Below are positions 9,496 to 31,242 of a stretch of 64,000 bases of DNA, piece by piece (positions within the stretch are counted from its first letter, which is position 1; each line of letters opens with the position of its first letter). The notes below the pieces were generated by a model. It did no database searches. It was not told where the DNA came from and worked only from the letters and a program-made list of their open reading frames with translations. The translations under genes and the position numbers were made by a program. Source of the stretch: Cryomorpha ignava (GTDB taxonomy: Bacteria; Bacteroidota; Bacteroidia; Flavobacteriales_D; Cryomorphaceae); contig NZ_JAAGVY010000016.1 of assembly GCF_010686655.1 (NCBI RefSeq), forward strand, positions 1-64,000. Reading direction: 5' to 3'.

Positions 9496-9912
9496 ATGCG
9501 CAAAGCCATCGCCATATCACTTTCGTTTATCCTGTTGCTCAGCAATGTGGGGTTAACGCTTGCAAGCCACTATTGTGGCGGAAAAGTGGTGGAGTCGCAG
9601 TTTATGATTGGCGCAAAAAATCTGGATTGTGGAATGCCAGATATGGACACAACTTGCGCGAATGACGATGCTGCCAATACGGTTCAGTCCATTCCATGTT
9701 GTGAAAATCACTACACGACCGCAAGTATCAAGGATGGTTTTACCGCAACAAGCCTTAGTCCTATTCCAAACGCCATTTTTATTCAGGCCTTTGTAGCCAC
9801 TTTTATTGATTTCACATTCGCCCGCGAATCTCTAAGGGACGATTTTTTCACTTACCTGCCCCCGGTCACACAACCCGATATTACTATTCTTTTTCAGGTT
9901 TTCCGTATCTGA
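9496..9912 (+). CDS. HYC_CC_PP family secreted protein (copy 1)
   Basis: A 138-residue protein with a signal peptide (residues 1-24), HYC at residues 25-27 followed by GG, a Cys-Gly-Met motif, a CC pair in PCCENHY and an LPP near the C-terminus. These landmarks define the HYC_CC_PP family of Bacteroidota, whose members often precede heavy-metal efflux operons. The conserved His and Cys residues suggest periplasmic metal binding, but this is not proven. It lies about 80 bp before cusA and has a paralogue at 25454. Confidence 0.8.
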   Translation: MRKAIAISLSFILLLSNVGLTLASHYCGGKVVESQFMIGAKNLDCGMPDMDTTCANDDAANTVQSIPCCENHYTTASIKDGFTATSLSPIPNAIFIQAFVATFIDFTFARESLRDDFFTYLPPVTQPDITILFQVFRI

Positions 9913-9995
9913 TTTGATGATTAATTAGTGTTTCGCAATAAGCCGATATTCCATCGCTTTTGCTTCATTATTTTATTTCATCAAATCATATTTTC

Positions 9996-12900: not shown

Positions 12901-13850
12901 CGATACGGGTGCGCTATCCGCGTGAACTCCGCGACGATCCGGAAGCACTCAAGAAAATAATGGTTGCTACTCCCACAGGTGCACAGATTCCAATGGGTCA
13001 GCTGGTTGATTTTGAGTACAAACGCGGCCCACAAGCCATTAAAAGCGAAAACACTTTTTTAACGGGATATGTACTTTTTGACAAGCGGGAAGATTTTGCT
13101 GAAATTGATGTAGTAAACAGCGCTCAAGCGGCCATTCAAAATAAAATTGATACCGGTGAGCTTACCGTTCCTGCGGGGATAAGCTATAAATTTTCAGGAA
13201 CTTACGAGAATCAAATTCGGGCAGTTAAGCGCCTTTCAATTGTGATTCCAATAAGTTTGCTCGTCATTTTCTTGCTGCTTTTCTTCCAGTTCAAAACCGT
13301 TATCGCATCGTCTATTCACTTTTCGGGAGTTTTTGTTGCGTTCGCTGGGGGGTTCATAATGCTCTGGCTCTACGGCCAAGGTTGGTTTATGGATTTTTCT
13401 ATTGCAGATATAAACATGCGTGAGCTGTTTCAAATGCATACTATTAATTTAAGTGTGGCAGTTTGGGTAGGTTTTATAGCCCTTTTCGGGATAGCTACCG
13501 ATGATGGGGTGATTATGGGAACATACATCCATCAGGTATTTGAAAAGAGAAAACCCGACACCATTACAGAAGTTCGCGATTCGGTGCTCGAAGCAGGCCA
13601 AAAAAGGGTTCGACCGGCAATGATGACGACTGCTGTGACGATTATTGCGCTACTGCCCATACTCACATCAACAGGAAAAGGTGCAGACATCATGATTCCT
13701 ATGGCGATACCCACTTTTGGTGGGATGACCATTCAGATCATGACCATGTTTGTGGTTCCCGTTTTACAGTCTTACTGGCGCGAAACGGTCATCCGAAAAC
13801 AAGAACGCAGAAGTTTGAATGCCGAAACACAAAACCTAAAATTGAATTGA
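9996..13850 (+). CDS. cusA: CusA/CzcA-family heavy-metal RND efflux permease
   Basis: The inner-membrane proton-driven pump of a tripartite metal exporter. The start at 9996 was chosen because it gives MLNKIIRYFLENK, the canonical N-terminus, whereas the ATG at 9960 adds 12 unconserved residues. The product is about 1284 residues against roughly 1040 for E. coli CusA. Family hallmarks are PGRSPQDIEDQISYPLT near residue 65, the charged helix-4 segment IGVMVDVAIVFIENI near residue 427, and GIATDDGVIMGTY near residue 1167. The extra length comes mainly from added membrane segments around residues 530-650. Cu(I)/Ag(I) is the likely substrate given the surrounding copper genes, while Zn/Co/Cd cannot be excluded from the sequence. 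Confidence 0.93.
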   Translation: MLNKIIRYFLENKLVTILILIAIVTWGIVVSPFNWDTGFLPKDPVPVDAIPDIGENQQIVFTQWPGRSPQDIEDQISYPLTTYLLGIPGVKTIRSSSIFGFSSIYIIFSEDVEFYWSRSRILEKLSSIPAGLLPDAVNPTLGPDATALGQVYWYTIEGRDKDGNTTGGWDLHEIRTVQDFYVKYGLNATEGVSEVASIGGFVQEYQIDVNPDALLAYKIPLEKVMMAVQKSNKDVGAKTIEINKAEYLVRGLGYVKNIEDIEKAVVAVQDNVPVRIKDIGKVSLGPAARRGLLDKGGAEVVGGVVVARYGSNPLEVINNVKGKIAEIAPGLPKKILPNGVESQLTIIPFYDRTELIQETIGTLETALSHEILISIIVVLILVLNLRASIIISGLLPVGVLMTFIVMQYSGVDANVVALSGIAIAIGVMVDVAIVFIENILRHLDMPENKGVRGRELLEVIYEGTTEVASAIITALATTIVSFIPVFAMEAAEGKLFKPLAFTKTFALLGALVLGLVVLPALAHILFGINYDKKKVRRFWSSLLIASGLVVAIYFGTLLPLALCLIGINGLLEKKWPERYEKFPNYINLALTVFVASFFLTKEWMPLGVVNSLLVNYIFVLFLIGIILAALLSIVRFYAPVLKWCLANKGKFMLIPLFTLLLGILAWKGFDKSFGFVAKGGEKIGWNIRDTGFWETSSDFFPGIGSEFMPSLNEGSFLLMPTSMPHSGMEYNREVLGQIDMLVSAIPEVDMVVGKLGRVESALDPAPISMFENVINYKPEYMLDQDGHRRRFKVDNQNRYITTSGDSLTNENALKADLTDVDLIPDEQGEYFRNWRPEIKSPDDIWDEIVRVTKIPGVTSAPKLQPIETRLVMLQTGMRAPMGIKVYGPKLETIEAFGRELETILKEVPSVKAEAVFADRIVGKPYLHLNINREEISRYGLNVADVQQTIETAIGGMKIGSTVEGRERFPIRVRYPRELRDDPEALKKIMVATPTGAQIPMGQLVDFEYKRGPQAIKSENTFLTGYVLFDKREDFAEIDVVNSAQAAIQNKIDTGELTVPAGISYKFSGTYENQIRAVKRLSIVIPISLLVIFLLLFFQFKTVIASSIHFSGVFVAFAGGFIMLWLYGQGWFMDFSIADINMRELFQMHTINLSVAVWVGFIALFGIATDDGVIMGTYIHQVFEKRKPDTITEVRDSVLEAGQKRVRPAMMTTAVTIIALLPILTSTGKGADIMIPMAIPTFGGMTIQIMTMFVVPVLQSYWRETVIRKQERRSLNAETQNLKLN

Positions 13851-13851
13851 T

Positions 13852-15147
13852 ATGATCTACAAAGGACTAAAATCAACACGCATATCGATGAGCAGGTTTA
13901 ATTTTTATAAAATGATGACTTTAAAAGGCTTCCTATTCGCATTAACAGTCTTCTTTTCAGCGCAGTTAAGTGCTCAGACTCTGGAAGATTATTACCGAAT
14001 AGCGGCAGAAGACAATCCCGGTTTAAAGGCCAAGTACACCGATTTTGAAGCATCGCTGGAGCGCGTTGTGCAGGTAAATTCCCTGCCCGATCCTACGTTT
14101 TCTTTTGGCTATTTTCTCTCACCGGTAGAAACACGCGTAGGGCCACAGAGAGCTAAGTTTTCGCTTTCGCAGATGTTTCCGTGGTTTGGTACACTAAGTG
14201 CTCGTGGCGATGTTGCTACGCTGAATGCAGAAGCCAAATATCAGGCTTTTCTGGATGCCCGAAATGCGCTTTACTATCAAGTTTCTGCAATCTATTATCC
14301 GCTTTATGAATTGCGCGAATTGCAGGAAATTGAAGTTGGAAATATCCGAATTCTCGAATCTTTCAAAACAATTGCCACAAGCAAATTTGAAAATGGAAGT
14401 GGCAGCCTGGCCGATGCACTGCGCGCGGATATAACCCTTCAAGATGCAATTGTGGAACTTGCAATTTTGCAAGAAAAGGAAAATGGAATGCACGCTGCAT
14501 TTAACAAGCTGTTGAACCGACCGTACAATGCTGCCATTGAAATATCAGACACGCTAACGGTTCAGAATGCACCCATCGTGTTTCAGCCAGATTCGATACT
14601 CTCTCGCAATCCATCTTTGGCTTCACTTTCGCTTCAGGCACAAGCCGCCGAAGCGCAACAAATAGCTGCTCAAAAACAGGGGTTGCCTGCTTTTGGCGTT
14701 GGGATAGATTATGTTTTGGTCGATAAACGCACAGACATGGACATGCCCAAAAACGGTCAAAATGTTTTGATGCCCATGGTTACGATGAGCATTCCGATTT
14801 TTCGGGGAAAGTATAAGGGAGCCATTCGCGAAGCAGAATTATTACAGGAGTCGTTTGAATTAAAAAAACAAGACTATTCAAATTCTCTGCTTTCGTCGTT
14901 TCACAAAGTTCAATTTGACTTAAAAAAACAAACGGATCTTATCGCGCTCTATCGCCGGCAGGTTGTAACAACGCAGCAAACTATGAACCTGCTTTTATCG
15001 GCTTACGCCAATAGCGGGAATGATTTTGAAGACGTATTAAACATTCAGAAACAGCTCTTGAAATATCAGCGAACGTTAGTAAACGCTTTGGTACAATACA
15101 ATATATCCTTTGCAGAAATGGACTACATAATGTCTCGCAACAATTAA
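13852..15147 (+). CDS. cusC: CusC/TolC-family outer-membrane efflux protein
   Basis: The outer-membrane channel component of the metal efflux pump, 431 residues. A signal peptide ending near SAQLSAQ fits best with initiation at Met21/22 (13912 or 13915), where a GCAGG-like ribosome site precedes; the ATG at 13852 starts one base after the cusA stop. The mature protein shows the two long coiled-coil helical halves of the outer-membrane factor family, with the LYRRQVVTTQQTMNLLLSAY-type helix near the C-terminus. It is tightly coupled between cusA and cusB. Confidence 0.88.
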   Translation: MIYKGLKSTRISMSRFNFYKMMTLKGFLFALTVFFSAQLSAQTLEDYYRIAAEDNPGLKAKYTDFEASLERVVQVNSLPDPTFSFGYFLSPVETRVGPQRAKFSLSQMFPWFGTLSARGDVATLNAEAKYQAFLDARNALYYQVSAIYYPLYELRELQEIEVGNIRILESFKTIATSKFENGSGSLADALRADITLQDAIVELAILQEKENGMHAAFNKLLNRPYNAAIEISDTLTVQNAPIVFQPDSILSRNPSLASLSLQAQAAEAQQIAAQKQGLPAFGVGIDYVLVDKRTDMDMPKNGQNVLMPMVTMSIPIFRGKYKGAIREAELLQESFELKKQDYSNSLLSSFHKVQFDLKKQTDLIALYRRQVVTTQQTMNLLLSAYANSGNDFEDVLNIQKQLLKYQRTLVNALVQYNISFAEMDYIMSRNN

Positions 15148-15157
15148 ATTTTAGATC

Positions 15158-16933
15158 ATGAAAAAAACACAAAATATAAAAGTCGCAATAGCAATAAGTA
15201 TTGCTTTGATTGTGGGGATTGGCATTGGTTCTTTTTTCAGTTCATCTGGAAATACTGAAACAGTAGCTGATAGCGATGGTGTGAACGCAACTGTAGAAGT
15301 GCAGGACGAAGTATGGACATGTTCTATGCACCCACAAATACGACAGCCCGAACCGGGAGATTGCCCAATATGCGGCATGGATTTAATCCTTCTGGAAAGT
15401 GATGGCAATAGCGGTATGGATCCAGATGCCATTGCCATGACGCCAGCCGCCATGAAGCTTGCCAGAGTTGAAACGCAAATTGTAGGCGGTGGATCTGCAA
15501 ATGAAAAAACGCTTAAATTAAACGGGAAAATAACCGAAGATGAGCGCCTGGTTTATGTTCAATCCAGCCACATTCCCGGAAGGATAGAAGACTTGAAAAT
15601 AAACTTTACAGGCGAGTACGTTTCCAAAGGAGAAGTTATAGGGCGCATCTATTCTCCCGATTTGGTTACCGCGCAACAAGAACTTTTCGAAGCCCGAAAA
15701 ATTAAAGATACCCAGCCCGCCCTGTACAATGCAGCTATGCAAAAGCTCAAAAATTGGAAAATTGGCGAAAGCACTATTCAGAATATTATGAGTGCCGAAA
15801 ATATTCAGGAAAACTTGCCAATTACTGCCGGTATCTCGGGATATGTTACTGAAAAACTGGTAAATCTTGGTGATTATATCGGCCAAGGCCAGCCACTTTA
15901 CAAAATAGCAAACCTGTCTGAAGTATGGGTTATGTTTGATGTATACGAATCTGAAATGCAATGGGTTAAAAAAGGTGATAAGGTAGATTTTACTGTGGCT
16001 TCCCTTCCGGGGAAAACATTTTCGGGAACCATTGATTTTATCGATCCAATAATTAATTCAGAAACCCGAGTGGCGAAGGCAAGGGTTTCTATAAAAAATC
16101 CCGACAACCAGTTAAATCCGGAGATGTTTGTAAGCGGTGAAATTAAATCCCAACTTTCTGGAAATACTGAAATTGCCGTACCCAAAACAGCAGTAATGTG
16201 GACTGGAAAACGATCTGTTGTTTACGTAATGCAGCAAACAGAAACTTCCACGACCTTTCAAATGCGCGAAGTGACTTTAGGAGCTGCACTTGGCGACAGC
16301 TATTTAATAACCGATGGCCTTAAAGCCGGTGAAGAAATTGCGGTAAACGGAACATTTAGCATAGACGCGGCCGCACAACTTGCCGGCAAGCCAAGCATGA
16401 TGTCGCCCGATGGTGGTGCTGCAACGACCGGCCACAACCATGGGAGCACGACGACAGCAAACGAAAGTGATAAAACCGTAAAGGAAAAAGCCGATCCCGA
16501 AACGGTTGCTGCGTTAGACAAAATCGTTGATGGGTACCTGCAACTAAAAACCGCTCTTGTAAATGATGATTTTGCCAAAGCGAAAACCGCCGTAGAAAAA
16601 TTAGACAAGCAAATGACAAATACTTCTATGAAAAGCTTCAAAGGCAAATCGCATGATGTCTGGATGCAAGAACAGGTCGAGATTCAAGGTGCTTTAAAAA
16701 AGATGACCGATATAGATTCGGCCAGGGGTCAATTAGAAACAGTTTCTGAAGGTATCCTGAAATTACTAAAGGCAACCAACTATTCTGGGCGAACGATTTA
16801 CGTGGATTTCTGCCCCATGGCAAATGACAACCAGGGCGCAATATGGCTCAGTACCGAAGAAGAAATCGAGAATCCATATTTTGGAAGTGCAATGTTGGGG
16901 TGCGGAGAAATACATGAGACAATTGAAAAATAA
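15158..16933 (+). CDS. cusB: CusB-type periplasmic adaptor with metal-binding and DUF3347 domains
   Basis: A 591-residue membrane-fusion adaptor linking CusA to CusC. A signal anchor (residues 8-28) is followed by the heavy-metal-binding domain, WTCSMHPQIRQPEPGDCPICGMDL, at about residues 53-76, split by the eye into a CSMHP part and a CPICGMDL part. The barrel-sandwich and beta-barrel adaptor domains span about 100-420. A His-rich linker leads to a C-terminal DUF3347 domain at about 450-590 with FCPMANDNQGAIW. DUF3347 recurs as a separate lipoprotein at 17226. The layout suggests the adaptor loads Cu/Ag from the periplasm into the pump. Confidence 0.92.
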   Translation: MKKTQNIKVAIAISIALIVGIGIGSFFSSSGNTETVADSDGVNATVEVQDEVWTCSMHPQIRQPEPGDCPICGMDLILLESDGNSGMDPDAIAMTPAAMKLARVETQIVGGGSANEKTLKLNGKITEDERLVYVQSSHIPGRIEDLKINFTGEYVSKGEVIGRIYSPDLVTAQQELFEARKIKDTQPALYNAAMQKLKNWKIGESTIQNIMSAENIQENLPITAGISGYVTEKLVNLGDYIGQGQPLYKIANLSEVWVMFDVYESEMQWVKKGDKVDFTVASLPGKTFSGTIDFIDPIINSETRVAKARVSIKNPDNQLNPEMFVSGEIKSQLSGNTEIAVPKTAVMWTGKRSVVYVMQQTETSTTFQMREVTLGAALGDSYLITDGLKAGEEIAVNGTFSIDAAAQLAGKPSMMSPDGGAATTGHNHGSTTTANESDKTVKEKADPETVAALDKIVDGYLQLKTALVNDDFAKAKTAVEKLDKQMTNTSMKSFKGKSHDVWMQEQVEIQGALKKMTDIDSARGQLETVSEGILKLLKATNYSGRTIYVDFCPMANDNQGAIWLSTEEEIENPYFGSAMLGCGEIHETIEK

Positions 16934-17058
16934 TATGCGCTCCGCCGACTGGAAGGAGTGCGTATGTATGGGCATGCGCCTTGCGGAATTTATGGAACAC
17001 AATAAGCATATCGTCTGTATTCTGCATTAAAGCTAAAATAATTGATCTTAAAAAATAA

Positions 17059-17190
17059 ATGAAAGAATGTTGTAAAACGGGCGACGAAAAAGCCCCTTCA
17101 ACTTTTAAAAAAATTACCAGCCGGATTGTTTGGGGAATTGTGATTCTCATAATAATCAGCCTGACTATCATACAAATATTTAATCTTTAA
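17059..17190 (+). CDS. 43-residue Cys-Cys single-pass membrane protein
   Basis: This short gene lies between cusB and the DUF3347 lipoprotein. The product starts MKECCKTGDEK, with adjacent cysteines at residues 4-5, and has a single hydrophobic helix at about residues 22-42. I recall similar small proteins near metal genes in other Bacteroidota but have no family name. It may tether or pass copper at the membrane, which is inference. Hydrophobicity, an intact frame and placement in the operon support it being real. Confidence 0.6.
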   Translation: MKECCKTGDEKAPSTFKKITSRIVWGIVILIIISLTIIQIFNL

Positions 17191-17225
17191 TAACGTCTGA
17201 TAAACGGACACAAAAACCAAATAAA

Positions 17226-17855
17226 ATGAAAAAGTCAATTTTTATGTTTGCCTTAGCGGCAATGACAGTAACAGCCTGCAACAGCCAGACAGGTAAAGAA
17301 GAACACGGAACAGAATCGCATAGCGATGAAATGATGCATGATGAACATGACGGTGATCACGACCAAAAATCTGACAAAAAGATGGCCAATACCGAATCAA
17401 TGCAAATCAAAAAATCTGATGCTACTGCACCTTTGCTTTCGGCATATCTTGATATGAAAGATGCGCTTGTAAATGATGAATCATCAAAAGCGGCGAGCGA
17501 AGGCAAAAAACTTTACAAGGCAATTGAAAGCTTTGATGTGGAAGCAAATGCAAACGGTCAAAAAGATGAAGTTGTCGAAATTTTGGCAGATGCAAAAGAG
17601 CACGCCGAGCATATTTCTGCTAATGACGGAAATATTGGACACCAGCGCGAGCATTTTGAGACGTTGAGTATCGATATGAAAGATCTGATTGCCATAGCTG
17701 GGGCAGACCGGGAACTCTATCAGGAATATTGCCCAATGTACAATGATGGCCAAGGTGGAATGTGGCTCAGCGACAATAGCGAAATACGCAATCCTTTTTA
17801 TGGAAGCAAGATGCTGAAGTGCGGTAAGGTTCAGGCGGAAATCACTTTAAAATAG
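17226..17855 (+). CDS. DUF3347 lipoprotein, His/Asp-rich
   Basis: A 209-residue lipoprotein with lipobox TVTAC (Cys18), then a His/Asp/Met-rich stretch at about residues 25-55 likely to bind metal. The DUF3347 domain follows (about 68-209) with YCPMYNDGQGGMWLS and a late KCGK cysteine, closely paralleling the C-terminus of the adjacent CusB-type adaptor. Probably a periplasm-facing copper-binding partner of the pump. Its TAG stop is the first three bases of a dispersed repeat (17853-17979). Confidence 0.85.
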   Translation: MKKSIFMFALAAMTVTACNSQTGKEEHGTESHSDEMMHDEHDGDHDQKSDKKMANTESMQIKKSDATAPLLSAYLDMKDALVNDESSKAASEGKKLYKAIESFDVEANANGQKDEVVEILADAKEHAEHISANDGNIGHQREHFETLSIDMKDLIAIAGADRELYQEYCPMYNDGQGGMWLSDNSEIRNPFYGSKMLKCGKVQAEITLK

Positions 17856-17979
17856 TGTCTGTCCATAAAGCCCGCTATCGGCGTTGCACTTTTTTCGAAA
17901 ACAGTCATTGACAAGGGTCAACTCCTTGATTTTCAAAAATGCGTGCGCCTTGCTATCGGACTTTCTTGCTCAGACACTT
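17853..17979 (+). repeat. MITE-like dispersed repeat, copy A (degenerate right end)
   Basis: This stretch aligns with the reverse complement of 42729-42832: shared blocks are TAGTGTCTGTC, CCGCTATC, GCGTTGCACTT, AACAGTCAT, ACTCCTTGATTT and GCGCCTTGCTATCG in the same order. Its right end (CAGACACTT near 17971-17979) is a decayed version of the terminal inverted repeat seen intact in the other copy. It abuts the DUF3347 gene and supplies its stop codon. Confidence 0.7.
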
Positions 17980-18357
17980 GAGTGAGCTTAGTGGATCACA
18001 TGCGCGCAGAAAGTAATTGTCAGATTTCAACCAAGACGAAAATTTGCGCATTTGTCGATCAAATGTCTGGAGATAAGGGAATGTGGTGGAGAAGATTCAG
18101 CATTGTGAAAATCTGCTAATCAACTTCCTACCCGCGCCCTGTGCATTCCTCTCGGCGAAAGGCCTCGTCGGATGCAGAAGGGCGCCAACGCGCGCTTCAT
18201 GCATAAGAGCAACTCACATCATGGAGAGCAAGGCCGCCACCATGTACTTGGATCATTAAATCAAAGGTTTCAAATGGAACGATGAACTGTGCGGTGGGCG
18301 CTCCCCTATAGGGGCTGGGGGCGCGTGTGGGCTTTGATAATAATACTTTGAAATAAG
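17980..18357. other. GC-rich non-coding stretch
   Basis: No gene is supported. The interval mixes AT-rich and GC-rich patches, including CCCCTATAGGGG (18303-18314) within a GC-rich tract, and pieces with many CpG-like steps unlike neighbouring genes. It looks like accumulated repeat debris between the efflux operon and the heme-binding gene. Confidence 0.5.
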
Positions 18358-18392
18358 GTGGTAGAAGATTCAAAAGTTGAATCTTCTACCAC
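18358..18392 (+). promoter_or_regulatory. Perfect 16-bp hairpin upstream of the heme-binding gene
   Basis: GTGGTAGAAGATTCAA (18358-18373), loop AAG, then its exact reverse complement (18377-18392). It ends 24 bp before the ATG at 18417 and has no following T-run, so it is not an ordinary terminator. It may be a leader hairpin or an operator controlling the heme-binding gene and the AraC-type regulator behind it. Confidence 0.6.
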
Positions 18393-18416
18393 TACTCCAA
18401 GTCAAAATTCACCAAT

Positions 18417-18863
18417 ATGAAAAAGCTAAAAATCATCTTAATAATCGCCATAATCATCTTTGCCGGAATACAATTTATTCCCACAGAAAGGAATATATCA
18501 AATGAAGTACCCGAAACCGACTTTATAAAAATGTACGACCCACCCGAAAATGTGGCGAACATATTGCAAAATGCCTGTTACGATTGCCATAGCAATAATA
18601 CAGCTTACCCTTGGTACAATAAGGTGCAGCCGGTGAGTTGGTTTTTGGAAGGACATATTAATGAAGCCAAGGAGCATTTGAATTTTAGTGAATTTGGGCA
18701 ATTAAGCGATCGGAAAAAGCGGAGCAGAATAAAGTCTATCGCAGGTCAGATTAAAGATGGCGAAATGCCGCTATTCTCTTATAAAGTACTTCACAAGGAA
18801 GCCCGTCTTGATTCTGAAGCGCAGGCATTGGTGATAGAATATATGCAAAACCTGAAAATATAA
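18417..18863 (+). CDS. Heme-binding domain protein (c-type, CxxCH)
   Basis: A 148-residue protein with an N-terminal membrane anchor or signal (residues 4-20), a single c-type heme motif CYDCH at about residues 54-58 and conserved YPWYNKVQPVSWFL after it. This pattern matches the Haem_bd family common in Bacteroidota. It probably lies on the periplasmic side and carries electrons or senses redox state. It sits 22 bp before the HMA-AraC regulator and is probably cotranscribed with it. Confidence 0.85.
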   Translation: MKKLKIILIIAIIIFAGIQFIPTERNISNEVPETDFIKMYDPPENVANILQNACYDCHSNNTAYPWYNKVQPVSWFLEGHINEAKEHLNFSEFGQLSDRKKRSRIKSIAGQIKDGEMPLFSYKVLHKEARLDSEAQALVIEYMQNLKI

Positions 18864-18885
18864 ACCCCACCAAAGACTAAGAGCA

Positions 18886-19443
18886 ATGGAGACAATTTAT
18901 ATTAAAAGCATGGTTTGTCCGCGGTGCATTAAAACGGTGGAATCCATTGTTTCAGGTTTAGGCTATTCAGATGCCGTAGTTAAGCTTGGCTATATTGAAA
19001 ATGCAAGTATTCGCTCGTTTATAGAACTTGATAAAAGGCTTAAAGAAGAAGGTTTTGAGCGATTGGTCTCCAATAATGAAATCATTTGCGAAAAGGTAAA
19101 ACTCGTTTTGATTGATCTCATTACCAATGCGAATTTGGATGAGCTTAGCATGAATATATCTGATTACATCTCTGCGAAAGTTGAAATGCCTTATTCAACT
19201 GCGGCCACTTATTTTAAAAAGACTTGTAATCATTCTGTAGACAGTTACTGGCAAGCGCTCCGCATGGAAAAAGCAAAAGAATGGTTGAGCTATGAAGATC
19301 ATACAGTTACAGAAATTGCCCAAAAGGTTGGGTATAATTCTCTACAATCTTTTAGCAAAGCTTTCAAATTAGCCGTTGGTCATAGTCCTTCCGTGTTTCG
19401 TAAGCAAAAACCATCAACGCGAAAGCTTCTTAATGATCTGTAA
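18886..19443 (+). CDS. AraC-family regulator with N-terminal HMA-like metal motif
   Basis: A 185-residue DNA-binding protein. Residues 1-60 resemble a heavy-metal-associated domain with Met9-x-Cys11-x-x-Cys14 (MVCPRC). Residues 75-180 contain the two helix-turn-helix units of an AraC domain, with VTEIAQKVGYNSLQSFSKAF as the second recognition unit and the GHSPSVFRK end. It is much shorter than sugar-responsive AraC proteins. The natural reading is a Cu(I)/Ag(I)-sensing regulator of this island, though the metal sensing is inferred. A partial copy lies at 21481-22053. Confidence 0.85.
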   Translation: METIYIKSMVCPRCIKTVESIVSGLGYSDAVVKLGYIENASIRSFIELDKRLKEEGFERLVSNNEIICEKVKLVLIDLITNANLDELSMNISDYISAKVEMPYSTAATYFKKTCNHSVDSYWQALRMEKAKEWLSYEDHTVTEIAQKVGYNSLQSFSKAFKLAVGHSPSVFRKQKPSTRKLLNDL

Positions 19444-22160: not shown

Positions 22161-22478
22161 ATGAAAGACTCAAAAGACTTACTTCAAAAATTAGCTGATT
22201 GCATAGCCGCATGTGAAAATTGTGCCAACGCCTGTCTGGAAGAAGACATGGTAAAAGAAATGATAAGCTGCATTAAAACAGATCGCGACTGCGCAGATAT
22301 TTGCAACACAACTTACAGATTGGTGGCAAGGAATTCTGATAACGCGAGAGCGATGCTGAAAGTCTGCGCTGACATTTGCAGAAAATGCGCTGACGAATGC
22401 GAACAACACGATATGCAACATTGCCAGGATTGTGCAAAAGCTTGTCGTGAATGCGAAAAGGCTTGTAAAGCGGCTTAA
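22161..22478 (+). CDS. Four-helix-bundle Cys-rich copper-binding protein
   Basis: A 105-residue protein with 16 cysteines in CxxxC and CxxC patterns along predicted helices (CIAACENCANAC at about residues 14-25 and CQDCAKACRECEKAC near the end). This matches the DUF326/copper storage protein (Csp) type, where thiols inside a four-helix bundle hold many Cu(I) ions. No signal peptide is visible, so a cytosolic location like Csp3 is expected. Its position before the multicopper oxidase supports copper buffering. Confidence 0.88.
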   Translation: MKDSKDLLQKLADCIAACENCANACLEEDMVKEMISCIKTDRDCADICNTTYRLVARNSDNARAMLKVCADICRKCADECEQHDMQHCQDCAKACRECEKACKAA

Positions 22479-22517
22479 AAAAAGGGGAAAACTAAGCGGA
22501 CCGATCAGAATTTCCGC

Positions 22518-24905
22518 ATGTTTTTTCTCTTCCTGCAAACAACCCTAATTACCAAAAAACCAACTCGCGTTTTGACAAAATTCTATATTCTCACGTTTCT
22601 CCTTTTAACTTTCGCTTTTTCGGCTTTCGCCCAAAATGTGCGCGATACAACCGTGCATCATCTCACTATTGAAAACCAAAAGGTAAACAAAGCCGGAAAG
22701 GACATCTGGGGCATGACAGTAAATGGCACTATTCCCGGTCCGACGCTCAATTTCACTGAAGGCGATTACGCCGTAATTTATGTGGAAAATAAAATGGATG
22801 TAGAAACTTCGGTGCACTGGCACGGCTTGTTGCTCCCCAATTTTTACGATGGTGTTCCCTATCTCACTACGCCGCCCATAAAGCCTGGAACAATCTTTAA
22901 ATATGAATTTGAAATAAACCAGTCTGGCACTTATTGGTATCATAGCCATACAATGCTGCAAGAGCAAAGTGGCGTTTATGGTAGCATTCAAATAAACCCT
23001 GTAGAAAAGACTCTGGAATACGATCATGACCAAATCTTAGTGCTTTCTGATTGGACGAATCAGAAGCCAATGAATGTGATGCGCAATTTGAAGCGTGGAA
23101 ATGAGTGGTACGGGATTAAAAAAGGAACTTCTACGCCATTGAGCATGGTGATAAGCCGTGGTGGTTTAGGCGCCCAGCTCAATTTCTGGAAACAGCGCAT
23201 GGAAGGGGCAGATATCGCCGATATTTATTACGATGCTTTTTTGACAAATGGAGAGCAAAAAGTAGATTATTCCCACTACAAACCAGGTGAAAAGATCCGG
23301 CTGCGCATTATTAACGGATCAGCTTCCTCGCAATTTTGGATGACTTTTGGTGGCGCTGACCCAATACTTATTGCAGCCGATGGCCTAAACGTACAGCCGG
23401 TAAAGCACAATAAAACTTTTATCGCTATTGCGGAAACTTATGACTTCATTATCACCATTCCCCAAAAGGGCATGATAGAAATGCGCTCCATGGCTCAAGA
23501 CGGATCTGGGATCACATATGCCTATTTCGGAAGTGGAGACACCCTTCACGCACCTGTTGTGGCAAGGCCCGACAAGATTGAAATGATGAAGAAAATGGCA
23601 AAAATGGATATGCGGATGGGTGCGCCAGCTACACAGTGGACTCCAAATAATCCCGAGCCGGAAAAGATGATGAATAAATGGGGTATGCAAATGGATGCCA
23701 TGAAAGGAATGGATCATTCTAAAATGAATCACGGCAAAAAGATGGATCACAGCAATATGAATCATTCCAAAAACAATGAAATGGACATGGCAAAATCCGA
23801 TTCCATGAAAATGGAAAACAGCACAATGGACAATCATGACAACATGAAAATGGAAGGCATGGAAATGGACGGGATGAACATGTTTGCCGAGTACAACTAC
23901 AATTATTTAAAAGCACTCGAAAAAACAGATTTTGACGAAGACCGGCCAAGAAGAGATGTCTTGCTAAACCTTACGGGAAATATGTGGCGCTATATCTGGA
24001 GTATGAACGGAGTGCCATTGGCGGAAGCCGACAAAATAAAAATCAAAAAAGGAGAAGTGGTACGCTTTACGCTGAATAATCTCACCATGATGCACCACCC
24101 TATGCACCTGCACGGCCATTTTTTTAGGGTGGTAAATGAAAATGGTGATTACTCGCCGCTGAAACACACCGTGAATGTTGCACCGATGCAAAAGGTGGTC
24201 ATTGAGTTTGACGCTAAAGAAGAGAGCGACTGGTTTTTTCATTGCCACGTACTCTATCACATGATGGGCGGGATGGCTCGCGTGGTTAGTTATGACACAA
24301 TTCGAGACGCACGTATGAAACCCTATCCGCTCAAAAAACTATTAAACGAAGGCAATCATTATTACAACTGGGGAATGATTGATGTGGCTTCCCACATGAG
24401 CGAACTCAATCTGGTAAGCTCAAATACACGCAACATGTTTGGATTGCGCATGGAATACGGGTGGAATCAAAATCTGGAAGGCGAGCTCACCTACGAGCGG
24501 TTTTTATACGATTATTTCCGCGTTTTTGGTGGGATAAATATTGAGAACGAAACAGAAGATTCATATGACCAGATTAACCCGACGGCTATTCTTGGAATTC
24601 GATTTTTTACGCCTTATATGTTTAATCTGGATTTCCGAATCGACAATGAGTTGCGCCCACAAATTGGCTTGAGCCGTGAGATTATGATCTTTCCTAAAAC
24701 AGTTCTCTTCGGTGAGTTTGAATACCTGTTTGACGTCGGCTGGGTAAACGACCTCAATGCCGAAAACACCGGAAAAGAAATTAATTATACCGATGAATTA
24801 GTCTGGCAAGTTGGCGCAGAGTATTTTCTTTCGCGAAATTTTTCGCTGATGGCGAGCTACGATAATCGGTTTGGAGTTGGTGGTGGTTTGTCTATCAAGT
24901 TTTAA
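22518..24905 (+). CDS. Multicopper oxidase fused to a CopB-like outer-membrane barrel
   Basis: A 795-residue CopA/CueO-type oxidase, likely oxidising Cu(I). A TTG at 22572 would give a tidier signal peptide than the ATG at 22518; either ends at AFSAFAQ. Copper ligands are visible: HWHG at 100-103, HSH at 142-144, HHPMHLHGH at 526-534 and HCHVLYHMMGGM at 575-586, with Met586 as type 1 axial ligand. A Met/His-rich insert covers about 356-455. Residues about 595-795 are not oxidase but a beta-strand-rich segment resembling copper resistance protein B, ending in GGGLSIKF. Fusion of two usually separate cop products is the main oddity. Confidence 0.9.
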   Translation: MFFLFLQTTLITKKPTRVLTKFYILTFLLLTFAFSAFAQNVRDTTVHHLTIENQKVNKAGKDIWGMTVNGTIPGPTLNFTEGDYAVIYVENKMDVETSVHWHGLLLPNFYDGVPYLTTPPIKPGTIFKYEFEINQSGTYWYHSHTMLQEQSGVYGSIQINPVEKTLEYDHDQILVLSDWTNQKPMNVMRNLKRGNEWYGIKKGTSTPLSMVISRGGLGAQLNFWKQRMEGADIADIYYDAFLTNGEQKVDYSHYKPGEKIRLRIINGSASSQFWMTFGGADPILIAADGLNVQPVKHNKTFIAIAETYDFIITIPQKGMIEMRSMAQDGSGITYAYFGSGDTLHAPVVARPDKIEMMKKMAKMDMRMGAPATQWTPNNPEPEKMMNKWGMQMDAMKGMDHSKMNHGKKMDHSNMNHSKNNEMDMAKSDSMKMENSTMDNHDNMKMEGMEMDGMNMFAEYNYNYLKALEKTDFDEDRPRRDVLLNLTGNMWRYIWSMNGVPLAEADKIKIKKGEVVRFTLNNLTMMHHPMHLHGHFFRVVNENGDYSPLKHTVNVAPMQKVVIEFDAKEESDWFFHCHVLYHMMGGMARVVSYDTIRDARMKPYPLKKLLNEGNHYYNWGMIDVASHMSELNLVSSNTRNMFGLRMEYGWNQNLEGELTYERFLYDYFRVFGGINIENETEDSYDQINPTAILGIRFFTPYMFNLDFRIDNELRPQIGLSREIMIFPKTVLFGEFEYLFDVGWVNDLNAENTGKEINYTDELVWQVGAEYFLSRNFSLMASYDNRFGVGGGLSIKF

Positions 24906-24924
24906 CCCTATAAAATCTAATATC

Positions 24925-25380
24925 ATGAAAAACAACTACTTAAAATTTGCCCTAATGATGGCGTGTTCATTCGTATTTATGTACGCAGCCATGTTCTTTA
25001 ATGTGAATGAACTTGATCATATTTATATCAGTGAATCCAGAACTTTTATGGCATTTTACATGGTGGCTCCCATGGCCGTTATTATGCTCCTGTTTATGCT
25101 TGGAATGTACACCAACAAGAAAATCAACACGTTGATAATTGTTGGTGGAATAGTGGTAGGTCTTGGCGCAGTATTTCTGCTTAGAACTCAAACCACAGTT
25201 AAGGACGTGCAATATATGAAAGCTATGATTCCGCATCACTCCATAGCTATCCTTGTAAGTGAAAATGCAACATTCGAAGATCCAGAAACTGCAAAATTAG
25301 CCAAGGAAATCATTGAAGCACAGAAACGGGAGATTGCTCAAATGGAGCGAATTATTGAAAGACTTGAGAACGAAAAATAA
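24925..25380 (+). CDS. DUF305 membrane protein
   Basis: A 151-residue protein starting at 24925 (an upstream in-frame ATG at 24871 overlaps the oxidase gene and adds an unlikely leader). Three hydrophobic segments at about residues 6-24, 40-58 and 68-86 are followed by MKAMIPHHSIAILVSE, the His-His signature of DUF305, and a helical Glu/Lys-rich end. DUF305 proteins are ferritin-like helical proteins commonly found with copper genes. The metal role is inferred from the HH motif and the neighbourhood. Confidence 0.85.
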   Translation: MKNNYLKFALMMACSFVFMYAAMFFNVNELDHIYISESRTFMAFYMVAPMAVIMLLFMLGMYTNKKINTLIIVGGIVVGLGAVFLLRTQTTVKDVQYMKAMIPHHSIAILVSENATFEDPETAKLAKEIIEAQKREIAQMERIIERLENEK

Positions 25381-25453: not shown

Positions 25454-25876
25454 ATGGTCTTGAAAAAAGTCTCTGCCATATTACTTGCCCTGTTAATACT
25501 AAGTTCAAATCTTAGTATTGCCCTTAGCACCCATTTTTGCGGGGGAAAGGCAGTAAAAAGTGAATTTTCAATTGGCAATTACGATCTGGATTGCGGAATG
25601 GCTGATATGGAAAGCTGCAACGATTTGGATTGGAATTTTAATAAAATTCAAGCAACACCTTGTTGCGAAAATCAGCATAGCTTTTTCAAAATTAATGATA
25701 GATATCAAAATCTTGGAGCGATAGATTTTGGCTTTATTCCTTTTGCGATTGTCAAAGACTTTTCACTGCAAGTCAGTTCAATTGTACAAACTTTTCCCAA
25801 AGCTTTATTCCAGACATATAAACCGCCATTGCCTAAACAGGCTGTGTTTATTCTATATCAGGTATTTAGACTTTGA
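25454..25876 (+). CDS. HYC_CC_PP family secreted protein (copy 2)
   Basis: A 140-residue paralogue of the 9496 protein, here with HFC instead of HYC after the signal peptide (STHFCGGKAVKSEF), a DCGM motif, PCCENQH, and a KPPLPKQ end. The start at 25454 gives a clean signal peptide; the longer frame from 25313 overlaps the DUF305 gene and is rejected. It probably has a periplasmic metal-linked role. The two copies frame the pump and oxidase modules. Confidence 0.78.
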   Translation: MVLKKVSAILLALLILSSNLSIALSTHFCGGKAVKSEFSIGNYDLDCGMADMESCNDLDWNFNKIQATPCCENQHSFFKINDRYQNLGAIDFGFIPFAIVKDFSLQVSSIVQTFPKALFQTYKPPLPKQAVFILYQVFRL

Positions 25877-26071: not shown

Positions 26072-27034
26072 ATGAAAAGACTTTTACTTACCAGTATTCT
26101 CACCTTAGCTATTGCAACAATAAGCTATGCTCAAACCGCAGTTTCAGTGCAGATTCATCACAAACTAAATGGGAATGATTTTGCATTTAATGAAACGGGA
26201 ACGAATGATTTGGATCAGGATTTTAATGCTGATCGACTTGAGTACTATTTATCTCAGATTAGCATTGTTCACGACGGTGGAACATATACCATTCTACAAG
26301 ATTATGCGATAATAGATGCAGGTTCTGAAGCTATTCTCGATCTCGGAGAGATAGATGCGAACACGATAGAATCGCTTTCGTTTTATGTTGGAGTAGATGA
26401 AGAAGACAATCACAGTGATCCGTCATCGTGGACTTCACCACATCCTTTAGCGCCAAGATTTCCCTCAATGCATTGGGGATGGTCTGCAGGTTTCCGCTTT
26501 CTGGCAATAGAAGGTACCGAGCTGGGTAGCAATCAGGAAGTACAAATCCATGCCCTTGGTGATGCGAATTACTTCGAAGTAATAATTCCAATTAACCAAG
26601 ATGTTACTGGCAGCGAAATGCTGATTAACGTTGATGCCAACTACGAAAGAATTTATGAAAATATAAACATTTCTGGCGGCCTAATAGTGCACGGCGAAGT
26701 AGGAATGGCAAAGCGAGCACTTGAAAACATGCGCGATCTTGTTTTTGAAGCATCAAGTGGAACAGTTTCAGTGCCAGAGTTAGGGTCAGACTTTACTTTA
26801 AATGCATTTCCAAACCCGGCTGTTGGCGGAAATGTGACGATTGATTTTAACTCGGATAAATCTTATGGCTACGACATTACAGTACTAGACATCCTTGGAA
26901 AAACGGTTGCAACGCGATCTAATGTTGGTAATACAGCCAATATCAATCTACAGCTCCCTGCTTCTGGTTTGTATTTATTGAACCTTTCTGTAAATGGCGA
27001 AACCGTTGCCACCAAAAAGATTATTTCTCAATAA
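26072..27034 (+). CDS. MbnP-like copper protein with T9SS sorting domain
   Basis: A 320-residue exported protein. After a signal peptide ending at ISYAQ (residue 21), residues about 22-230 match the MbnP family: DFNADRLEYYLSQI, then MHWGWSAGFRFLAIEG at about 133-148 with the conserved tryptophans. In methanotrophs MbnP binds copper through a kynurenine formed from Trp by the diheme enzyme MbnH. Residues about 240-320 (FPNPAVGGNVTIDF onward) are a T9SS sorting domain, which implies surface display. The next two genes encode diheme enzymes of the right kind. Confidence 0.85.
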   Translation: MKRLLLTSILTLAIATISYAQTAVSVQIHHKLNGNDFAFNETGTNDLDQDFNADRLEYYLSQISIVHDGGTYTILQDYAIIDAGSEAILDLGEIDANTIESLSFYVGVDEEDNHSDPSSWTSPHPLAPRFPSMHWGWSAGFRFLAIEGTELGSNQEVQIHALGDANYFEVIIPINQDVTGSEMLINVDANYERIYENINISGGLIVHGEVGMAKRALENMRDLVFEASSGTVSVPELGSDFTLNAFPNPAVGGNVTIDFNSDKSYGYDITVLDILGKTVATRSNVGNTANINLQLPASGLYLLNLSVNGETVATKKIISQ

Positions 27035-27040
27035 GCTCTG

Positions 27041-28075
27041 ATGTTTAACTGGATCAAACCCATCTTTTTTCTTTTAGTCACTTCCGCTTTTTTAAGCGGT
27101 TGTGCTAAAGATTCTGCGAATGATAAGCCGCTGCCGCAAAGGCCGTTGCTTGTTATTCCCGAAGGGTTTCCAGAAGTTGCCTTTCCTGAAGACAATCCGT
27201 TTACGAAGGCGAGTTATGATTTGGGTAAGAAATTATTCTTTGACCCTATTCTTTCTCGCGATTCATCCATTAGCTGCGGCTCTTGCCACCAGCCATCTCT
27301 CGCTTTTAGCGATAGGATTGCTTTGACAAGCGGAGTTGACGATGCGCCGGGCAAGCGAAATGTGCCGAGTCTTACAAATATTGGCTACCATCCCTATTTT
27401 ACGCGCGAAGGTGGCGTGCCAACCTTAGAAATGCACGTTTTGGTGCCTATTCAAGAACACAATGAGTTTGACTTTAACATAGTGCTTATTGCTGACCGAT
27501 TAAAAAAGAGTGAGCAGTACGTGGCAATGGCTCAATCGGCTTACGAGCGCGAGCCGGATGCGTTTGTAATTACGCGCGCTTTGGCAAATTTTCAGCGCAC
27601 ACTTATAAGCGGCAACAGTGCTTATGATCGCTATGCTTTTCAAGGTATACCCAATGCTTTGAACGCTGCAGAACTACGCGGAATGAATCTTTTTTTTAGC
27701 GACGAGCTTGCTTGTAGCTCCTGCCATTCGGGTTTTAATTTTACCAATTACACCTTCGAAAACAACGGTCTATACGAAGATTACATTGACGAAGGTCGAA
27801 TGCGTTTAACGGGATTAGAAACGGATAGAGCACGTTTTAAAGTGCCATCATTGCGAAATGTGGAATTAACTGCACCATATATGTTCGATGGTTCGTTGCA
27901 AACCCTTCAAGATGTTGTAGAGCATTATAATTCAGGTGGCTACGCACATGCGAATAAAAATGAAGAAGTAAAACCATTGGGGTTAACCAATACAGAGAAA
28001 AATGATCTTGTAGCTTTCTTAGGATCGCTTACAGATTATGAATTTTTGGAAAACCCAAACCATTATCCCAATTAA
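27041..28075 (+). CDS. Diheme cytochrome c peroxidase / MbnH-like lipoprotein 1
   Basis: A 344-residue lipoprotein (lipobox LSGC, Cys21) with two c-type heme sites, CGSCH at residues 79-83 and CSSCH at 225-229, in the spacing of the bacterial diheme peroxidase/MauG/MbnH superfamily. Conserved KRNVPSLTNIGY and FKVPSLRNVELTAPYMFDGS segments agree. It starts 6 bp after the MbnP-like gene, so a role in maturing that protein by oxidising a Trp is attractive. Ordinary peroxide reduction is the alternative. Confidence 0.88.
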   Translation: MFNWIKPIFFLLVTSAFLSGCAKDSANDKPLPQRPLLVIPEGFPEVAFPEDNPFTKASYDLGKKLFFDPILSRDSSISCGSCHQPSLAFSDRIALTSGVDDAPGKRNVPSLTNIGYHPYFTREGGVPTLEMHVLVPIQEHNEFDFNIVLIADRLKKSEQYVAMAQSAYEREPDAFVITRALANFQRTLISGNSAYDRYAFQGIPNALNAAELRGMNLFFSDELACSSCHSGFNFTNYTFENNGLYEDYIDEGRMRLTGLETDRARFKVPSLRNVELTAPYMFDGSLQTLQDVVEHYNSGGYAHANKNEEVKPLGLTNTEKNDLVAFLGSLTDYEFLENPNHYPN

Positions 28076-28081
28076 TACAAC

Positions 28082-29179
28082 ATGAAAAAATATAAAGTAC
28101 TCATCTGTTTATTGGTTTCTGCTGCATTGTGGCAGGCTTGCGCCGATGATGAAAGTGAGCAGCCAAAACCGCAACCGGCTGTTTACGATGCCACAGCTTA
28201 TGAGTTGAACTATTACGGACTACCGGCACCAAACTTACCCGCAGATAATCAGCTTACCAAACAAAGCGTTCAGCTTGGCAAAATGCTGTTTTACGAGCCG
28301 ATGCTTTCCAGAAACGGCGTACAAACCTGTGCGACGTGCCATAGCCAGCCATCATCTTTTTCAGATACCGCAAAGTTTTCTATTGGTGTAGAAGGCCTTC
28401 CGGGAAAACGGCAGTCAATGGCTATTTTCAATATGGCATGGCATACCAACCAATTCTTTTGGGATGGGCGAGCAGACTTACTTAGAGATCAGGTTTTGAT
28501 GCCCATTCAGGATCCACTCGAAATGAACGAAACGCTTGAAAATGTGGTGGCAAAGCTCAGTGGAACTCAACTTTATCGCGATCAGTTTATGCGCGCTTTT
28601 GGAACCGAAGATGTAAATCCGGAGCGTATTTCTCTTGCGCTTGAGCAATTTATTCTCACAATTATTTCTGCCAATTCAAAGTATGATAAATACAAGGCAG
28701 GCTTAGCAGAGCTTTCTGAAAGTGAACTACGCGGTCTCGAACTATTCGAAGCAGAATACAACCCTTTCTTTCCCGAATTTTCTGGTGCAGATTGTCAGCA
28801 TTGCCACGGCGGACCAAACTTTGAGAATGATCTTTACATGAATAATGGACTGGACATAGAAGCTGATTTTCTTGATTTCGGACGCGAAAATGCAACAGAA
28901 AACCCGGCAGATCGCGCTAAGTTTAAAGTGCCTTCGCTTAGAAATATTGCTGTAACGCCTCCGTATATGCACGATGGAAGGTTCGCTACGCTCGAAGAAG
29001 TAGTAGATCATTACAATGAAGGAATTCACCCTTCGCCTACCATCGATCAAGCACTATTGGCTACAGCCGAAACAGGTTTGTTTTTAACAACAGAAGATAA
29101 AACCGATTTGATAAACTTTTTAAAAACGCTTACCGATGAAACGTATCTGGAAAATCCGGAATACGCATCACCCTTTTAA
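28082..29179 (+). CDS. Diheme cytochrome c peroxidase / MbnH-like lipoprotein 2
   Basis: A 365-residue lipoprotein (lipobox WQAC, Cys20), also with two heme sites, CATCH at 83-87 and CQHCH at 238-242. Family segments include FWDGRADLLRDQVLMPIQDP and FKVPSLRNIAVTPPYMHDGRF. It is a diverged paralogue of the previous gene, separated by 6 bp. The second heme motif sits in a slightly longer loop than in paralogue 1. Two diheme enzymes in tandem behind one MbnP-like gene may act as partners or on different targets. Confidence 0.88.
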   Translation: MKKYKVLICLLVSAALWQACADDESEQPKPQPAVYDATAYELNYYGLPAPNLPADNQLTKQSVQLGKMLFYEPMLSRNGVQTCATCHSQPSSFSDTAKFSIGVEGLPGKRQSMAIFNMAWHTNQFFWDGRADLLRDQVLMPIQDPLEMNETLENVVAKLSGTQLYRDQFMRAFGTEDVNPERISLALEQFILTIISANSKYDKYKAGLAELSESELRGLELFEAEYNPFFPEFSGADCQHCHGGPNFENDLYMNNGLDIEADFLDFGRENATENPADRAKFKVPSLRNIAVTPPYMHDGRFATLEEVVDHYNEGIHPSPTIDQALLATAETGLFLTTEDKTDLINFLKTLTDETYLENPEYASPF

Positions 29180-29193
29180 AACCCTAATATCTT

Positions 29194-31242
29194 ATGAAAA
29201 ACTTTTACGCATTATTTACTCTTTTAGGAATCATTCTATTTTCTACTCCAAGCTTCTCGCAATGCGCGGATGGTGAAGTAGAAGTAGAAATCGTGGTACA
29301 CACAGATGCTTACGGCTATGAAGCCTACTGGCAGCTAGTGCCAAATGGAAATGCATGTAACGACGGCACAATTGCCTCTGGCGGAAATACCGCTGTGGGA
29401 TGCAATGGAGCAGGCGACCAAAATCAAACGCCTGGTGGTTATGGCGACAACCTTGAAATTACTGAAGGCCCGTGGTGTTTGGCTGAAGGTGCAGATTTCG
29501 ATTTAATTTACATTGATGATTGGGGCGATGGTGGTTTTTCCTTCGATGTATATGTAAACGGTTATTCAATTGAGAGTTTTGACGGAATTGGGCTTGGAGC
29601 CACTTTTACTTTTACCGCTGCTGAACCGCCAACTTACGATATGGGGGTGTCTGCATCAAATCTATACCAGTATGTGAATATTGGATCATTTGACATCCAC
29701 GGACATGTTTTTAATTTTGGTACAGAAACTATAAATTCTTTTGATTTCAATTATGCAATTGATGGCGGCGAAACCCAAACTTTTGCAGTAACAGATGCGA
29801 ATTTGGCGAATTACCAGGATATGGAAGTGGAGCATGATACACCATGGATTATTTCTGAAAATGGTGTTTATGAAGTGTCAATCTGGACGGATAATTTGAA
29901 TGGCAATGTCGATGAAAATCCGGCAAACGACACCTTAAACCTTACGGTTGAAGCAGGCCCAGGAACACCAAATATTATCGACAATTACATTAATGCACTT
30001 CCATTAATTACGGCTATTGCCAATGGGTCTGATGACGTGAACAATCCCACAGATCTCGATTTTCATCCGGTATTGAGCAACAAAGAACTTTGGGTAATAA
30101 ACAAAGACACCGAAAACTCAGGTGGAAGCACGGTTACAATTTACAATGCCGGCGAGTCGAACCAAACAGAGCTTTGGAAAAGAGATGGAAATGCGTGGCA
30201 TTTTATGTCGCTACCTACCGGAATCGCATTTAGCCAAAACGGTAATTTCGCGAATTCGCCTGGAGTTTATGACGCCAATCACAATGGCGGAGATGCATTT
30301 ACAGGTCCTGCCCTTTGGTCAAGCGATATGGACATATACGCAGAGCCTTCAGGCGGAAACGGAAGCCACCTTGACATGTTGCATCAATCACCTTATTCAC
30401 AAGGTATTGCAGCTGAAAAAGACAATGCTTTTTGGGTTTTTGATGGATATAGCAATGACATTGTGAGAAACGATTTTGTTGATGACCATGGTCCGGGAAA
30501 TGACGACCATTCTGATGCCAGAATACGCCGATACGCCGATGATGAAGTGCTCCGCGACCCAAATAACGAAGTGGTGAGCCACCTTGTGCTCGACGGAGAA
30601 AATGAATGGTTATACGTTGTAGATCACGGCAATGATCGCGTTATCCGCATAGATATAAATACAGGAATTGTAGGTGGCACACCGCCATATCCGGCCAACG
30701 AGCTTTATGAAGAATATACTATGGTAACTGGTTATACCCAAGAAACCGTAGTGGCTTCCGGAAACCTTTCACGACCAGCTGGGATTGATGTGATAGAAGA
30801 TAGAATGATTGTTTCAGAATTTGAAACAGGCGAAATAGTCATTTACGATATCAGCGTAATGCCTGCGCTTGAACTCCACCGCATCGAAACTGGTTTTAGC
30901 AGTTTGCAAGGAATTAAAATAGGCCCGGATGGGAAAATATGGGGCGTTGACTACAACTCAAATACTGTTTTTAGAGTAGATGATTCTGCCCTTTCGGCAA
31001 ATAATATCGAAATTACTGATCCTATTATCTTTCCAAATCCTACTAGCGACATGATTCAAATAATTAATCTGGATCAAAACGCACTCCTGCAATTATTTGA
31101 CATGCAAGGAAAATTAGTGAAGGAAATGCGAACGAATCAATCAAAAGTCGAAATGAATATGACTGACTTGGAATCAGGTATTTATACACTTAGAGTAAAT
31201 TATGCCCGAGGATCGACGTCTAAAAAGGTTGTAAAACTTTAA
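29194..31242 (+). CDS. Secreted beta-propeller protein with T9SS sorting domain
   Basis: A 682-residue exported protein. Signal peptide ends near PSFSQ (residue 22). Residues about 23-120 form a Gly/Asp-rich domain common in Bacteroidota surface proteins, about 145-250 a CARDB-like beta-sandwich, about 265-610 an NHL/SMP-30-like propeller (repeats such as WLYVVDHGNDRVIRID and GKIWGVDYNSNTVFRVD), and the last 75 a T9SS domain. It is the fourth gene of the MbnP/MbnH-like cluster (14 bp gap). A surface partner role is inferred from synteny only. Confidence 0.8.
   Translation: MKNFYALFTLLGIILFSTPSFSQCADGEVEVEIVVHTDAYGYEAYWQLVPNGNACNDGTIASGGNTAVGCNGAGDQNQTPGGYGDNLEITEGPWCLAEGADFDLIYIDDWGDGGFSFDVYVNGYSIESFDGIGLGATFTFTAAEPPTYDMGVSASNLYQYVNIGSFDIHGHVFNFGTETINSFDFNYAIDGGETQTFAVTDANLANYQDMEVEHDTPWIISENGVYEVSIWTDNLNGNVDENPANDTLNLTVEAGPGTPNIIDNYINALPLITAIANGSDDVNNPTDLDFHPVLSNKELWVINKDTENSGGSTVTIYNAGESNQTELWKRDGNAWHFMSLPTGIAFSQNGNFANSPGVYDANHNGGDAFTGPALWSSDMDIYAEPSGGNGSHLDMLHQSPYSQGIAAEKDNAFWVFDGYSNDIVRNDFVDDHGPGNDDHSDARIRRYADDEVLRDPNNEVVSHLVLDGENEWLYVVDHGNDRVIRIDINTGIVGGTPPYPANELYEEYTMVTGYTQETVVASGNLSRPAGIDVIEDRMIVSEFETGEIVIYDISVMPALELHRIETGFSSLQGIKIGPDGKIWGVDYNSNTVFRVDDSALSANNIEITDPIIFPNPTSDMIQIINLDQNALLQLFDMQGKLVKEMRTNQSKVEMNMTDLESGIYTLRVNYARGSTSKKVVKL

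Follow-up and report, generated by a model that had tools for sequence, protein, structure and literature searches.

The MbnP protein of methanotrophs reportedly holds copper through one histidine, one methionine and solvent, next to a kynurenine that derives from the leading tryptophan of a WxW motif. Its gene adjoins that of a diheme protein, MbnH, and MbnP/MbnH pairs outside methanobactin operons are already known (PMC3621798; PMC9426467). CorA, also from methanotrophs, is a kynurenine-containing Cu(I) protein of the cell surface that is repressed by copper and has a co-transcribed diheme partner (PMC3912023). The literature that was searched, which excluded the 2021 MbnP and 2019 MbnH papers, describes no MbnP carrying a type IX secretion system (T9SS) tail, and no paired second diheme. 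Here we describe an operon from Cryomorpha ignava, within a 64,000-nucleotide stretch of contig NZ_JAAGVY010000016.1 (the window), that probably encodes a surface-delivered MbnP-type Cu(I) protein together with the diheme enzymes that mature it, for copper homeostasis or detoxification. Its four genes are:

26072-27034, + strand: MbnP gene, T9SS-tailed MbnP-family protein, 320 aa
27041-28075, + strand: H1 gene, diheme lipoprotein of the MbnH/MauG superfamily, 344 aa
28082-29179, + strand: H2 gene, second diheme lipoprotein of the MbnH/MauG superfamily, 365 aa
29194-31242, + strand: P4 gene, T9SS-tailed protein with an NHL-type beta-propeller core, 682 aa

The open reading frames share one strand and are separated by 6, 6 and 14 bp. 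Promoter and terminator scans returned nothing exceeding shuffled sequences. The MbnP-diheme-diheme arrangement goes beyond chance, as the same order recurs across many Bacteroidota families.

The MbnP gene product, which contains SMHWGWSAGFRF, comprises a signal peptide, an MbnP core (residues 22-201) and a type A sorting domain (residues 246-319). It matches PF20243 above the gathering score (4.8e-29, 102 bits, cut-off 27) and Por_Secre_tail at 6.6e-12. An AF2 model (pLDDT 90.8) aligns through its core with the Methylosinus trichosporium MbnP structure 7L6G (Z 17.8, 199 residues, rmsd 2.6), and in fold searches its tail resembles the sorting domains borne by the T9SS proteins NucA and mirolase. 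A phmmer search of the full-length protein against the PDB matched the T9SS tail alone, and a profile including the tail (A1) reached 7L6G only at E 0.24; the tail-free profile (A2) did so at 2.2e-5. These results bear out an earlier note on this DNA, which had read from its letters the four genes and their spacing, an MbnP-type core with a T9SS tail, two lipoproteins with two CxxCH motifs each, and a T9SS propeller protein.

The residues predicted to form the copper site are the following:

26468-26482, + strand: M133-H134-W135-G136-W137, the WxW motif, with W135 as the predicted site of tryptophan-to-kynurenine conversion
26549-26551, + strand: H160, copper ligand predicted from column conservation
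26690-26692, + strand: H207, an extra, nearly invariant histidine found chiefly within the T9SS clade

In an alignment of 222 MbnPs, M133, W135 and W137 are kept in 116/116 of the T9SS forms, a count to which 79 loci, having been selected by a match to M[HD]WGWx[SAP]GY, contribute the motif by construction; the T9SS loci recruited via PF20243 alone likewise carry MxWxW, and 7L6G has M, W and W in the same columns. The H160 column holds histidine in 115/116 T9SS MbnPs, 90/90 ordinary MbnPs of the WxW type, and 7L6G. At H207, histidine is found in 115/116 T9SS forms against 21/90 ordinary ones, and 7L6G has a gap. By analogy, M133, H160 and W135 would be natural equivalents of the copper-site methionine, histidine and kynurenine-forming tryptophan of MbnP. 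The tryptophan is thus placed as the earlier note had asked of a true MbnP. The WxW motif is missing from sixteen ordinary MbnP-family proteins (e.g. MEWPVAMGGGYHYM), most of which still have an adjacent diheme gene; loci of this kind include L034, L035, L036, L044, L047, L052, L115, L118, L121 and L122. The second MbnP of the C. ignava genome, on another contig (C10, locus L113), is of the ordinary type with a single diheme partner, and its motif region reads GMFWSWQGGYR.

H1 and H2 each carry two CxxCH motifs, lipoprotein-type N-terminal signals and CCP_MauG matches (150.6 and 170.4 bits, respectively), with key residues as follows:

H1: CxxCH at 79-83 and 225-229; Tyr296 in the ligand column; R122 in the inter-heme tryptophan column; H132
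H2: CxxCH at 83-87 and 238-242; Tyr311 in the ligand column; inter-heme W127; CADDE after the lipid cysteine

The top NCBIfam model for both is TIGR04039, the MbnH family, and their best PDB match is MbnH itself (6e1c; 6.1e-41 for H1, 3.2e-50 for H2), with cytochrome c peroxidases and MauG ranking lower. In the column of the second heme's sixth ligand, tyrosine stands in 100% of the H1 sequences and 98% of the H2 sequences, where the classical peroxidase 1iqc has methionine, and the distal glutamate is invariant. The tyrosine ligand and the greater closeness to MbnH than to CcpA speak against classical bacterial cytochrome c peroxidases; from MauG the two dihemes differ by scores far under the TIGR03791 cut-off and by the lack of methylamine dehydrogenase genes in the operon. 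The inter-heme tryptophan is present in 82/82 H2 sequences and in 80/95 of the dihemes linked to ordinary MbnPs. Residue 132 of the window's H1 is histidine, at a distal-region position that is glutamine in 97% of its relatives.

MbnP is found in 97/395 Bacteroidota genomes and in 56/60 genomes of the window's order, and nearly every MbnP in the Bacteroidota sample has an adjacent diheme gene. The T9SS MbnPs form a single clade (support 99/95), within which fall three rows not flagged as tailed. Around 116 T9SS MbnPs the gene order is P-H1-H2 in 61 cases (8 of them at a contig end), P-H1 in 20, P-H2 in 9 and P-H2-H1 in 6, the remainder showing other arrangements or contig ends, and P-H1-H2 is kept across Bacteroidota families. 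Culturable environmental bacteria that carry the cassette include Lewinella cohaerens (L262) and Aureispira (L292). Counted anywhere in the locus, both dihemes are present in 75 of 112 loci, H1 only in 22 and H2 only in 9; tested genomes with H1-only cassettes hold further H2-related dihemes elsewhere (counted irrespective of the tryptophan). In the diheme tree, which comes from a rapid search and has a single measure of support, the T9SS-linked H2s form one clade (28 rows, SH-aLRT 98) and the T9SS-linked H1s a separate branch (39 rows, SH-aLRT 99) with four ordinary-linked rows inside, and both fall among MbnP-linked dihemes. A third diheme lineage occurs near the cassette or a P4 relative at L195 8838-10004, L220 10438-11616 and L248 5080-6225. 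Along one strand of locus L120 (6875-10671), an ordinary MbnP, H2, a T9SS MbnP and H1 alternate, an order suggesting that H1 possibly pairs with the T9SS form of MbnP.

MbnP is predicted to reach the cell surface. TIGR04183, the type A sorting domain, matches both MbnP and P4, and the genome encodes SprA (2514 bits), so that sorting domain and translocon are both present. A lipobox was called in 5/116 T9SS MbnPs versus 79/90 H1 and 76/82 H2 proteins. The lipid cysteine of H2 is often continued by K-K-D-E, and 76% of H2 proteins have at least two acidic residues between +2 and +6; an acidic stretch in this position resembles the surface lipoprotein export signal of Bacteroidota. Ordinary MbnPs are themselves often lipoproteins, and 67% of those bearing a lipobox have acidic residues there.

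The window holds two further groups of genes associated with copper:

9496-9912, + strand: first HYC_CC_PP protein (family match), directly upstream of CusA
9960, + strand: CusA, named, like the next two, by sequence reading and relatives' family matches
13852, + strand: outer-membrane factor
15158, + strand: CusB
17226, + strand: DUF3347-type protein (weak family match)
18886, + strand: AraC-type regulator (family match); the Cus-type efflux block as a whole spans 9496-19443
22161, + strand: Csp1-like DUF326 protein (Pfam/NCBIfam)
22518, + strand: CopA-type multicopper oxidase (Pfam/NCBIfam)
about 24922, + strand: CopM-like DUF305 protein (Pfam/NCBIfam); the Csp1, CopA and CopM neighbours span 22161-25380
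25460-25876, + strand: HYC_CC_PP-family small protein (NF047658, 62.3 bits), directly upstream of MbnP with 195 bp between

Each HYC_CC_PP protein of the window thus directly precedes a copper operon, that of CusA or that of MbnP, and the second is possibly part of, or a leader to, the latter. As a same-strand upstream neighbour this family accompanies 22/116 T9SS MbnPs versus 1/106 ordinary ones. Its position recalls the copper-responsive leaders of the DUF2946/CruR kind, which in other bacteria are found ahead of MbnPH genes as well (PMC9426467). Among the neighbour clusters of the 112 T9SS-MbnP loci HYC_CC_PP is the commonest (46), followed by CusB (23), CusA (17), multicopper oxidase (14) and copper ATPase (12). 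One multicopper oxidase near a T9SS MbnP (L263 5027-6742) itself has a T9SS sorting domain.

A working scheme for the operon can be put forward largely by analogy with Methylosinus MbnP/MbnH. MbnP would cross the inner membrane by Sec and fold in the periplasm, where H1 and H2 would react with peroxide and draw electrons from it, converting W135 to kynurenine. H2 has the full electron path of MbnH/MauG; H1, with its tyrosine-type heme site and no inter-heme tryptophan, might use another path or perform a different step. Mature MbnP would then bind Cu(I) via M133 and H160 beside kynurenine 135, perhaps with H207, as conservation suggests. The T9SS would then deliver MbnP, along with P4 in the loci that have it, to the cell surface, where MbnP would capture copper; homeostasis or detoxification is likelier here than acquisition because of the Cus/Cop island.

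A number of observations weigh against this reading. MbnP scores 36.5 bits against the TIGR04052 equivalog, below its curated cut-off of 140, and is only about 17-19% identical to 7L6G. H1 and H2 score 275.7 and 235.8 bits with TIGR04039, under the curated equivalog cut-off of 362.85. The inter-heme tryptophan column of H1 holds tryptophan in 0/90 sequences, and mostly arginine. Loci with H1 alone or H2 alone in cis occur. Finally, CusA, CusB or CopA relatives lie near 3/33 T9SS loci drawn by profile, as against 7/100 ordinary MbnP loci, which rules out a general enrichment of efflux genes beside T9SS MbnPs for that sample. The same relatives lie near 36/78 named loci, the Saprospiraceae-rich closest matches of the window, so the copper-efflux link holds for part of the family; the link to copper resistance drawn by the earlier note stands for the window and its closest matches, and fails in the profile-drawn loci. 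None of three contrary outcomes fixed beforehand (no MbnP profile match, the key tryptophan absent, grouping of the dihemes with classical CcpA) was found. The synteny check showed the MbnP-diheme cassette recurring across Bacteroidota, and the propeller gene rarely so.

The earlier note further took both dihemes to be maturases. Both are indeed present, and their joint retention in 75 loci suggests that both matter, but a shared job is too strong a claim: since H1 lacks the inter-heme tryptophan and each diheme occurs without the other in cis, the two may have unlike jobs, and a division of labour between them is suggested by their sequences. In a variant compatible with the favoured reading, one diheme (H2, or H1 where it stands alone) is the maturase and the other a peroxidase or electron partner protecting or feeding it. 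The strict split at the tryptophan column, the existence of single-diheme loci in both forms and the L120 order, as if H1 served the T9SS form, favour this variant, which has somewhat less than an even chance. Against it, H1 need not be inactive, as BthA, which likewise lacks the inter-heme tryptophan, yields a stable bis-Fe(IV) state (PMC6405878). A two-enzyme relay, in which H2 and H1 perform different oxidations on MbnP, or on MbnP and P4, and the surface site combines kynurenine with a further ligand or modification (e.g. H207, W137) absent from methanotroph MbnP, seems unlikely. That the dihemes are plain peroxidases, with copper-loaded MbnP as electron donor and no tryptophan modified, we regard as very improbable: both belong to the CCP_MauG superfamily, and classical peroxidases do use small redox partners, yet the closest solved relative is MbnH, the ligand is tyrosine, and the partner MbnP conserves its tryptophan, methionine and histidine.

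The purpose of the surface protein can also be read differently, as a copper-acquisition device like CorA or MopE of methanotrophs. The properties of CorA set out above favour such a role, as does the occurrence of methanotroph MbnP/MbnH pairs near TonB-dependent transporters (PMC3621798); against these stand the efflux, oxidase and storage genes of the window, and no TonB-dependent receptor was found among the annotated recurrent neighbours of T9SS-MbnP loci, some clusters being left unannotated. Acquisition appears rather unlikely, and copper homeostasis or detoxification is preferred.

P4 has a propeller core at about residues 270-600 and a sorting tail at residues 612-680. The tail matches Por_Secre_tail at 3.1e-13, and NHL/Vgb matches are sub-threshold only. 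Foldseek likens the P4 model to NHL propellers, an assignment that is a statement of fold class only because the model is weak (pLDDT 69.9). The family alignment of P4 (A4) contains many invariant histidine, aspartate and tryptophan residues. Relatives lie near T9SS MbnP in about 9/112 loci; P4 is an optional fourth gene and not a core of the system, contrary to its inclusion as a third component by the earlier note. That it is a chance neighbour with no role at all is nevertheless decidedly unlikely. Most cassettes lack it and several relatives elsewhere do not adjoin MbnP, but, besides those loci, 11 of the 12 genomes with P4-core relatives (among 395) also hold MbnP, a figure drawn from genomes clumped in a few families and uncorrected for phylogeny.

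If the favoured reading is correct, many Bacteroidota would display kynurenine copper sites at their surface, unconnected with methane or methanobactin. A natural pair of dihemes, with and without the inter-heme tryptophan and beside the same likely substrate, would also offer a direct test of the need for this residue in protein-tryptophan oxidation.

Set beside the known systems, the operon shares with MauG, which matures the tryptophan tryptophylquinone (TTQ) cofactor, a diheme enzyme with a Tyr-His heme that oxidises a tryptophan of a partner protein, and differs in the two points named above. BthA of Burkholderia resembles H1 in its missing tryptophan, but has serine where most H1 have arginine and is not described as MbnP-linked (PMC6405878). 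In CorA/CorB and MopE/SACCP (PMC3912023), as in the arrangement proposed here, a kynurenine-bearing Cu(I) protein of the cell surface is accompanied by a gene for a diheme partner; the CorA site consists of two histidines and kynurenine, with a single diheme partner. No CorA/MopE structure was among the listed fold matches of MbnP, which does not exclude a CorA fold. We know of no T9SS tail on CorA or MopE. The ordinary MbnP-diheme pairs of Bacteroidota belong to the same protein families, their MbnP often being a lipoprotein whose lipid cysteine is followed by acidic residues, but they lack the T9SS tail, usually have one diheme and have sometimes lost WxW. Closest of all is MbnP/MbnH of Methylosinus trichosporium OB3b (7L6G, 6e1c; PF20243, TIGR04052/TIGR04039), which shares the MbnP fold, the Met/WxW/His residues, the adjacent gene for a tyrosine-ligand diheme and the copper context. 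MbnB was not found in the C. ignava genome (assembly 99.85% complete), in keeping with the absence of methanobactin genes seen by the earlier note, and the system described here is set apart from its methanotroph counterpart by a T9SS tail, two distinct lipoprotein dihemes, one of them without the inter-heme tryptophan, and an optional propeller protein.

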